Part shown: positions 10,038-31,242 of the stretch, in pieces
How positions within the stretch are numbered: the stretch's first letter is position 1
Layout of the letters: every line of letters begins with the position of its first letter
Assembly: GCF_033971325.1 (NCBI RefSeq)
Contig: NZ_CP117180.1
Location: 316,041 to 380,040 of the forward strand
Source: Hydrogenobacter sp. T-2
Lineage (GTDB): Bacteria; Aquificota; Aquificia; Aquificales; Aquificaceae
Direction of reading: 5' to 3'
DNA length: 64,000 bases
Notes under the pieces: generated by a model
What the model saw: the letters and a program-made list of their open reading frames with translations, nothing else
What the model was told of the DNA's origin: nothing
Databases searched by the model: none
Made by a program: the position numbers and the translations under genes

Positions 10038-10109
10038 GCGGGCGTAGCTCAGTGGTGGAGCGGCTGCTTGCCATGCAGCAGGTCGCGGGTTCGAGTCCCG
10101 TCGCCCGCT
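10038..10109 (+). tRNA. tRNA-Gly (anticodon GCC)
   Basis: The cloverleaf folds with acceptor stem GCGGGCG/CGCCCGC, D arm GCTC/GAGC, anticodon stem GCTGC/GCAGC around loop TTGCCAT (anticodon GCC), and T arm GCGGG-TTCGAGT-CCCGT. The discriminator is T. CCA is not encoded. A TATAAT at 10020-10025 is the likely promoter. Confidence 0.96.
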
Positions 10110-10113
10110 TTTA

Positions 10114-10185
10114 GGCAACGTGGCCGAGCGGCTAGGCGAGGGACTGCAAATCCCTTCTACGGCGGTTCAAATCCGCCCGTTGCCT
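10114..10185 (+). tRNA. tRNA-Cys (anticodon GCA)
   Basis: The acceptor stem is GGCAACG/CGTTGCC, the anticodon loop CTGCAAA (GCA), the T loop TTCAAAT, and the discriminator T as required for Cys tRNA. It starts 4 nt after tRNA-Gly, so both come from one transcript, which probably continues into rpsT. CCA is not encoded. Confidence 0.96.
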
Positions 10186-18755: not shown

Positions 18756-20129
18756 ATGTTTTTCTGGAGGAAGACAGAAGAAGAAAAGCTTGCGGAAAGG
18801 GGCGACAAGAACGCCATACTGACCCTAATAGAAAAGGGCAAAAAGGACAAGGCTATTGAGATATTGGAAAGGTTTAAGGAGAACCCAGAGCTAAGAGGCT
18901 TGTTATTCAGACTATACATGGAGGAGGGCAAATACTACTATGCTTACCAGCTTATAGAACACTATGACCCTGAGCTTGCAACCGCCAAAGAAAAGGCTCT
19001 TATATATGAGAGGGTGGGAGAGTTAGAAAAGTCCGCCACAGAGTATGCAAAGCTGGGAGATTGGGAGAGTTTAAAAAGGGCAGGTCTTTTGCTCTATGAG
19101 GCAAAAAAGCCAGAAAGGGCTCTTGAACTCTTAAACCGTTCTCTAAAACTTGCACCAGCCCTTAAAAGGCAGGAGGTAGAGGAGGTCATAAGAAGGATAC
19201 AGGAGGAGCTAGGTCTTATACAAAGGGAGAGCTTTCTGGAAAAGCTCAAAAAGGGTCTGAAAAAGACAAAGGAAGCGGTAGAGTTTGGCATACTCTTTGC
19301 AGGTAGGAAGATAGACGAGGAGCTCTTTGAAGAGCTTGAGGAAAAACTCATTAAGGCTGACGTGGGTGCTAAGGTCTCTCTGCAGATGGTGGAGGAGCTA
19401 AGAAAGGAAGCCATAAGGAGAAATCTCAAGACCTCAGACCAACTGGCTGGACTTTTGAAGGGTCTACTTCTTTCACAGATAAGTAAGTGTGAGGGCACGC
19501 TCAAGGAGCCTCACGAAGGGATAACCCTCTATCTCTTTCTTGGTGTAAACGGCTCAGGAAAGACAACTACCATAGGAAAGCTTGCCTACAGGTTTGTAAA
19601 GGAAGGTAAAAGGGTTCTCCTCGTGGCGGGAGATACCTTTAGGTCCGCCGCTATTGAACAGCTTGAGGTGTGGGCTCAGAGAAGTGGTGCGGACATATTC
19701 AAAAAGCACGAAGGTGCAGACCCCGCTTCTGTAGTATACGAAGCCTTGCAAAAGGCTACCTCGGAGGGTTATCAGGTTGTGCTTGTAGACACCGCTGGCA
19801 GGCTTCACACAAAAGAGCCTCTTATAAGAGAGCTTAGGAAGATAAGGGATGTGATTAAGAGGTTTTTACCGCAAGAGCCTACAGAAACTCTGCTCGTGTT
19901 GGATGCAACCATCGGTCAAAACTCCATACAACAGGCAAAGGTTTTCAAAGAGGCGGTTGAGGTAAGTGGACTAATTCTCACAAAGCTTGATGGCTCTGCC
20001 AAAGGTGGTGCAATAGTGCCCATATGTAGGGAGCTTGGCATTCCAGTAAAGCTCATAGGTGTAGGCGAAGGCATAGAAGACCTACAGCCCTTCGTGGCGG
20101 ATGCCTTTATAGAAGAGTTAATCTCTTAG
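18756..20129 (+). CDS. ftsY: Signal recognition particle receptor FtsY, with helical-repeat N terminus
   Basis: FtsY is the membrane-associated GTPase that docks SRP-ribosome complexes for co-translational insertion. The C-terminal NG domain (about residues 170-455) has G1 GVNGSGKTTT (about 263), LLVAGDTFRSAA, G3 DTAGR, and G4 TKLDGSAKGG. The first 150 or so residues do not resemble the disordered acidic A domain of proteobacterial FtsY. They are a run of short amphipathic helices (KDKAIEILERFKENP, then YYYAYQLIEHYDPEL, LEKSATEYAKLGDWES and PERALELLNRSLKLAP) that read as TPR-like repeats. The promoter hexamer TAAAAT ends 9 nt before the ATG. Confidence 0.92.
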   Translation: MFFWRKTEEEKLAERGDKNAILTLIEKGKKDKAIEILERFKENPELRGLLFRLYMEEGKYYYAYQLIEHYDPELATAKEKALIYERVGELEKSATEYAKLGDWESLKRAGLLLYEAKKPERALELLNRSLKLAPALKRQEVEEVIRRIQEELGLIQRESFLEKLKKGLKKTKEAVEFGILFAGRKIDEELFEELEEKLIKADVGAKVSLQMVEELRKEAIRRNLKTSDQLAGLLKGLLLSQISKCEGTLKEPHEGITLYLFLGVNGSGKTTTIGKLAYRFVKEGKRVLLVAGDTFRSAAIEQLEVWAQRSGADIFKKHEGADPASVVYEALQKATSEGYQVVLVDTAGRLHTKEPLIRELRKIRDVIKRFLPQEPTETLLVLDATIGQNSIQQAKVFKEAVEVSGLILTKLDGSAKGGAIVPICRELGIPVKLIGVGEGIEDLQPFVADAFIEELIS

Positions 20130-31152: not shown

Positions 31153-31242
31153 CGGAGAGGGCGGGATTCGAACCCGCGGTAGGGCTGTTAACCCTACAAC
31201 TCCTTAGCAGGGAGCCGCCTTCGGCCTCTCGGCCACCTCTCC
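31153..31242 (-). tRNA. tRNA-Ser (anticodon GCT)
   Basis: This is a class II tRNA with acceptor GGAGAGG/CCTCTCC, anticodon loop CTGCTAA (GCT, for AGC/AGU), a long variable arm (TGTAGGGTTAACAGCCCTA) and T arm GCGGG-TTCGAAT-CCCGC. The discriminator is G, as for Ser tRNAs. A TATACT lies 11 nt upstream of the 5' end on the minus strand. Confidence 0.95.

Follow-up and report, generated by a model that had tools for sequence, protein, structure and literature searches.

A predicted TPR solenoid ahead of the GTPase domain in the SRP receptor FtsY of Aquificaceae

The FtsY of Hydrogenobacter sp. T-2 carries, ahead of its GTPase domain, an N-terminal domain that is predicted to fold as a TPR solenoid. 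We class the protein as an FtsY with a TPR domain, the fold being predicted and its Pfam score borderline, and not as one with an acidic A domain of the E. coli type. FtsY, the receptor at which ribosomes engaged in making membrane proteins dock, is nearly universal. In E. coli the A domain is described as intrinsically disordered and in contact with lipid and SecYEG (passages of PMC9099147), and density that is unresolved between the NG domain and the translocon has been assigned to it (PMC5454536); the N-terminal part being disordered and unresolved there, what this variable part of FtsY does has stayed open. A domains are not uniform in sequence or size, and in most cases the receptor has been cut down to NG, according to PMC2572998. 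With a compact, confidently predicted domain in this place, a thermophilic FtsY lets nature itself test which property the connector must have: reach, charge, order or binding.

The ftsY open reading frame occupies positions 18756–20129 of the window, by which we mean the whole 64,000-nucleotide stretch analysed, on the + strand, and encodes 457 amino acids plus a stop. It sits between frames that we take to be trpA-like and lon-like, all in the same direction. Elsewhere in the window lie two tandem tRNA genes 4 bases apart (10038–10185) and a third tRNA gene at 31153–31242 (−). The initial annotation had placed the FtsY N terminus at 18756–19220, and these coordinates are right, spanning residues 1–155 of one ORF. 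Residues 185–455 are recognized as the NG domain by TIGR00064 (341 bits against a cut-off of 260.7), and in a structure search with the whole model the NG fold matches E. coli FtsY (2yhs; E 8e-26, TM 0.91 by target length, 2.3 Å). The same genome has an Ffh-like match (G000:C1:239917-240765). By its sequence, the protein is the SRP receptor FtsY; a GTP-dependent complex with Ffh and ribosome targeting are assumed from family membership. The best 50 matches listed in the structure search are SRP GTPases, and the TPR domain was therefore searched separately. The features of the protein are listed here.

18756..18776, + strand: residues 1–7 (MFFWRKT), αA1-like aromatic-basic tip; family pattern [MV]-[FLIV]-F-[WF]-[KR]-[KR]-[ST] with few exceptions; low pLDDT (below 50 for residues 1–3)
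18777..18797, + strand: residues 8–14, predicted first helix (AlphaFold2), with the top mean conservation among the ten helices
18807..18875, + strand: residues 18–40, predicted TPR-like hairpin 1 (AlphaFold2; TPR_19 match 24–73)
18885..18962, + strand: residues 44–69, predicted TPR-like hairpin 2 (AlphaFold2; TPR_19 match 24–73)
18984..19055, + strand: residues 77–100, predicted TPR hairpin 3 (AlphaFold2; 5/8 canonical positions; PDB profile match of 83–137 to consensus TPR)
19062..19151, + strand: residues 103–132, predicted TPR hairpin 4 (AlphaFold2; 7/8 canonical positions)
19158..19211, + strand: residues 135–152, predicted capping helix (AlphaFold2, domain alone)
19227..19295, + strand: residues 158–180, αN1-like amphipathic helix region, aligned with E. 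coli FtsY; net +4 over 158–185
19308..20126, + strand: residues 185–457, NG GTPase domain (profile and structure matches)

The assignment of the N-terminal domain to the TPR fold draws on profiles and on models. Scanned alone, residues 1–155 match Pfam TPR_19 with 28.4 bits, against a cut-off of 25. TPR_2 matches 38 of 39 Aquificaceae N-termini at E ≤ 0.01, the best at 5.7e-14, and TPR_14 likewise matches 38 of the 39 at this threshold; as a negative control, none of ten FtsY N-terminal extensions from other phyla matches any Pfam family at 0.01. Searched against the PDB, the family profile finds consensus designed TPR proteins, with a best value of 4.1e-23 that is a sum over repeats, no single stretch being significant alone, and it finds 7obi at 2.5e-16 with three stretches significant individually. 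The canonical TPR residues, scored at eight positions, are present at seven in repeat 4, at five in repeat 3 and at fewer than five in each of repeats 1 and 2.

The AlphaFold2 model of the whole protein, built from 48 aligned sequences, has helices at residues 8–14, 18–26, 30–40, 44–56, 60–69, 77–87, 90–100, 103–115, 119–132 and 135–151. Block means of pLDDT are 90–97 over residues 11–130, and the whole-model pTM of 0.66 leaves the orientation of the TPR domain to NG unsettled. Modelled alone, the domain shows the same ten helices, the last extending to residue 152, with a mean pLDDT of 96.1 and a pTM of 0.87. VIA-align places this model at Z 10–11 to MamA, YfgM, EMC2, SRP68/72 complexes and designed TPRs. 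Of 981 chains, 381 reach at least Z 8; the matches listed are mostly TPR proteins by title, and Z under about 13 is common among repeat folds. In the same alignments, 73–80 residues of repeats 3–4 and the cap superpose on small TPR chains or TPR stretches at 1.8–2.4 Å. These data support residues 8–152 as a predicted TPR solenoid of four repeats and a capping helix, at a borderline Pfam score. The TPR-like helical N terminus proposed in the initial annotation is thus borne out by the Pfam matches in relatives and by the confidence of the domain model; structure prediction returned ten confident helices, not disorder or a normal A/N1 helix only.

We give almost no credence to an artefact, in which a misread start, a frameshift fusion or chance helical composition produces the appearance of a TPR domain. 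Such a reading could point to the TPR_19 score within the whole protein, which at 23.8 bits falls under the cut-off of 25, and to Foldseek, where the domain alone has no match in the PDB at E ≤ 0.001 (the best, at 3.6e-3, is a consensus TPR). It is contradicted by a stop-free frame that is matched from residue 3 or earlier in 54 Aquificaceae genomes, by the TPR models matching all but one of the 39 members, and by the conserved start: the first residues, [MV]-x-F-[WF]-[KR]-[KR]-[ST], are kept across Aquificaceae FtsY with few exceptions. Among 33 Aquificaceae ftsY loci measured, 16 on the other strand being left out, the frame is closed 6 codons or fewer upstream of the start in 20.

A survey of the phylum, covering 136 Aquificota genomes at E ≤ 1e-60, shows how the domain is distributed. 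Among the 64 genomes of Aquificaceae (family f1), 56 have a near-complete FtsY and all 56 of these carry the TPR domain. The profile match begins at residue 3 or earlier in 54 of the 56, one of which is cut by a contig end; the later starts are from residue 6 in G020, also cut by a contig end, and from residue 28 in G028. In the remaining eight genomes the search picked up only Ffh or had no match at all; two of them, G005 and G071, contain fragments of FtsY. One genome rated 99% complete, G019, has an Ffh-like match and no FtsY, which probably reflects a gap between contigs. A profile of the domain (A2) matched 19 of 19 Aquificaceae N-termini, 18 of which were in its build, and gave E 0.36 or worse for 22 other testable N-termini.

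The related families differ from one another. All seven genomes of family f2 have a shortened homologous form, with about 90 residues ahead of αN1; hhalign of A2 columns 2–77, covering repeats 1–2, against five f2 sequences gives 96.7% (E 3.8e-10). The f2 form (L110–L116) consists of about two repeats and has a strongly basic MVFGFF tip. Family f5 has FtsY in 21 of 22 genomes, and the 20 that were read have a TPR-like N-terminus of about 155–175 residues, mostly opening with MFGFF or MLGFF and basic residues and matching TPR_21 in 13 cases. Hydrogenothermaceae (f3) have FtsY in 37 of 41 genomes and the domain in none, the open frames being 304–343 aa long in the 36 of 37 that are in one piece. 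Family f4 gave no match in either of its two genomes at E ≤ 1e-60. It belongs to the same class, and its only FtsY-like candidate is a divergent protein of ~270 aa (L166:1291-2106, +; L169:1483-2286, −) with 38% identity over the matched G domain, under the FtsY cut-off. Separate copies of the domain were sought in 14 genomes at E ≤ 1e-6, in a search that failed to pick up the forms of f2 and f5 as well and so finds close copies only: each of the four Aquificaceae genomes gave a single match, which lay at FtsY, and the remaining 10 gave none, with no stand-alone copy in the seven Hydrogenothermaceae.

In a tree of the NG domain the families branch as (outgroups,(f5,(f3,(f1,f2)))), with f5, f3 and f2 strongly supported and f1 at 75/90. 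This tree is compatible with a domain that was gained once, at the root of the class, and then became shorter in f2 and disappeared from f3, and also with separate gains in f5 and in f1 plus f2. The Aquificaceae and f5 domains align by hhalign at 69.6% (E 4.2e-5 over 117 columns), which is too weak to separate descent from general TPR likeness, and a single origin was not adopted on this ground.

Outside Aquificota we surveyed 320 genomes of four phyla (118, 61, 80 and 61), leaving aside Campylobacterota, Bacteroidota and archaea. At E ≤ 1e-80 this gave 307 FtsY matches, some of them fragments, and 13 genomes without a match. The measure was how early a match to the A1 profile begins; applied inside Aquificota, it gives a start before residue 100 in 15 of 21 f5 proteins (all by 111) and in none of seven f2 proteins, so that short or divergent TPR forms could escape it. 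Nine of the 307 matches begin by residue 120 in a stop-free frame, and none of the eight that were read is a TPR protein; the ninth, G176, begins at 120. Only two begin before residue 100, G340 (76) and G400 (79), and both have Ala/Glu-rich low-complexity connectors. A match in G139, from residue 62 and with internal stops, has an acidic connector. Judged by these sequences, the full-length TPR domain appears lineage-specific, with none among the 307 outside matches by a measure that is blind to short forms. Within the phylum to which L022 belongs, two FtsY proteins (L240:199-1575, +; L241:153-1523, +) carry a GFF tip, then an acidic linker and then a helix-rich-looking stretch of ~85 residues that matches no Pfam family at 0.01 and is perhaps another structured connector.

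What was exchanged in Aquificaceae appears to be the connector and not its ends. The N-terminal tip is αA1-like, and αN1 aligns with that of E. coli FtsY. By sequence and model, tip and αN1 both remain; what differs is the stretch that joins them, which elsewhere is acidic and disordered and here is a predicted folded scaffold. After residue 10 the net charge of the domain averages +1.3 across 39 Aquificaceae sequences (range −3 to 8), and residues 8–158 of the Hydrogenobacter sp. T-2 protein carry a net −3. Among 15 outgroup FtsY, hand-picked for long extensions or an early profile match, the extensions range from +2 to −54 and 13 are negative; 13 additional extensions from outgroups, each at least 60 residues long when measured from stop to stop, are all negative (−15 to −45). 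Most of the 15 have an aromatic-basic start, for example MFKWFKRKK or MLAWFKKK, and the connector that comes next is mostly of low complexity. The Aquificaceae domain is thus neither acidic nor, at the high confidence of its predicted fold, disordered as an A domain of the E. coli type is. The phrase "in place of the acidic A domain" in the initial annotation therefore holds for charge and predicted order, and falls short in that the tip and αN1 remain.

The E. coli lipid contacts are αA1 in a Dynamic mode and αN1 in a Stable mode, as set out in sections of PMC5533587. Since the tip and αN1 are kept, both of these contacts are, by analogy, probably kept in Aquificaceae FtsY. The membrane half of the proposal that the receptor docks in a different way is weakened accordingly by the aromatic-basic tip and αN1, while the translocon half may still hold, the predicted folded module hinting at another means of keeping the receptor at the channel in the membrane. 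The Aquificaceae tip itself is weakly charged, at only about +2 across residues 1–7 with acidic residues next; over the first ten residues the mean charge is −0.1, against +3.8 in f2 and +3.6 in f5.

In order, the protein comprises an aromatic-basic membrane tip, a predicted four-repeat TPR solenoid with its cap, the amphipathic αN1 and the NG GTPase. As in E. coli, lipid would be bound by the tip and by αN1. The folded solenoid would take over from the fluctuating tether, and its fixed surface would hold the receptor at SecYEG or YidC; alternatively, that surface may orient the receptor toward ribosome-bound SRP. In E. coli the disordered A domain is described as providing a search volume for NG (PMC9099147, in part); in Aquificaceae NG would be held in a defined geometry with no flexible-leash search, the rigid solenoid shortening and fixing its reach. 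Our best explanation, which we hold tentatively at not quite an even chance, is that the TPR solenoid replaces the acidic connector and, through a protein contact, keeps FtsY in place at the translocon or insertase. A more specific form, to which we would give two chances in five, makes the solenoid a rigid docking platform: it would attach to some cytosolic part of SecYEG, YidC or the ribosome and set the geometry of the receptor. Such a platform may go back to the ancestor of the class, with a shortening in one family and a loss in Hydrogenothermaceae. Counting against docking, the C-tails of Ffh, YidC and SecY compared below (14–16 genomes) gave no partner motif, Hydrogenothermaceae do without the domain, and the charge of the Aquificaceae tip is weak.

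Conservation bears on this explanation and on its alternatives. The N-terminal domain is under purifying selection, with omega within the range of the GTPase: 0.026–0.080 for the domain (6 of 10 pairs computable) and 0.047–0.105 for NG (9 of 10), synonymous change being near saturation in most pairs and dS below 1 in both parts only for the two nearest. Across 39 Aquificaceae sequences the commonest residue accounts for a mean of 66% per column over residues 11–155 versus 78% over 186–457, so that by this sequence measure the GTPase is the better conserved of the two. Within the TPR domain, the helices from 8–14 to 44–56 carry the most mean information (3.2–3.3 bits), helix 77–87 comes next (3.1) and the cap has the least (2.35). 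The best-conserved helices coincide with the portion retained by the shortened f2 form, and K6, S7, E10, K11, E14 and K29 are near-invariant. From this pattern, residues 1–56, the best-conserved part, would be the likeliest contact surface.

The solenoid might instead be a folded spacer, a heat-stable connector of fixed length between two membrane contacts that needs no partner. The flanking lipid motifs are kept, so that a connector is all that is strictly required, and its length varies across the class from about 90 residues in f2 through 155 in Aquificaceae to 155–175 in f5. We consider a spacer unlikely, if not strongly so, as omega resembles that of the GTPase, the near-invariant polar and charged positions exceed what a spacer needs, and Hydrogenothermaceae have dropped the connector altogether. 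Less probable still is a regulator in cis, in which the solenoid packs on NG or αN1 and keeps free FtsY inactive or membrane-averse until SRP or the translocon opens it, using shape instead of charge. The acidic A domain of E. coli hinders stable membrane binding by αN1, by the account in part of PMC5533587, and an equivalent may be needed; here, however, no packing is seen, the pTM falling from that of the domain alone to the lower whole-model value, and the TPR domain lacks a strong net negative charge.

For protein contact at the translocon or insertase, a partner was sought by co-occurrence. The C-tails of Ffh (16 genomes), YidC (14) and SecY (14) were aligned across f1, f2, f3 and f5, and no motif in them tracks the domain, in a weak test in which several Ffh and SecY rows ran from a later start and the SecY of G056 was a wrong ORF. 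An Ffh tail of the P-x-[FL]-PF type was rejected as the partner, being also present in the TPR-less Hydrogenothermaceae, as was a basic YidC tail that occurs in some Aquificaceae and is absent from f2 and f5. Ffh of Aquificota (L213–L228) mostly ends in a Pro-Phe tail, such as LPKFPFPF or FPFPFM, with or without a TPR domain in FtsY.

If the preferred reading of a solenoid that holds FtsY by protein contact is true, Aquificaceae and their kin would achieve with an ordered structure the tethering for which other bacteria rely on disorder in co-translational targeting. Related families in which the domain is complete, shortened or absent lend themselves to comparison, and Aquificaceae FtsY should be well suited to structural work on the receptor–translocon complex. 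Among the papers listed in searches of the open full-text literature, none is, by title or start of abstract, on a TPR-bearing FtsY; domain databases or other papers may have it.

Known systems resemble the Aquificaceae receptor in different parts. The domain resembles MamA (Z 11.3, 140–141 residues, 4.8–5.0 Å) and designed CTPR2 (1na3; Z 10.9, 76 residues, 2.1 Å), both of unrelated function. Structural matches show a TPR solenoid fold in common with the human SRP68/72 complex, EMC2, YfgM and yeast Sec72, which, judging by entry titles, act in SRP, insertase and translocon complexes. These are separate subunits of other machines, and the similarity is that of TPRs in general, with no sign of common descent. 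The short FtsY of Thermotoga maritima (1vma) and Hydrogenothermaceae, thermophiles like Aquificaceae, share αN1 and the NG domain and, unlike Aquificaceae FtsY, are without an N-terminal connector. E. coli FtsY (2yhs, 5gad) is alike in its NG domain (48% identity over 305 columns), in αN1 and in a basic tip that is followed by a long connector (PMC5533587, in part). That connector is acidic and intrinsically disordered according to portions of PMC5533587 and PMC9099147, whereas in Aquificaceae it is neutral and predicted to be a TPR solenoid.
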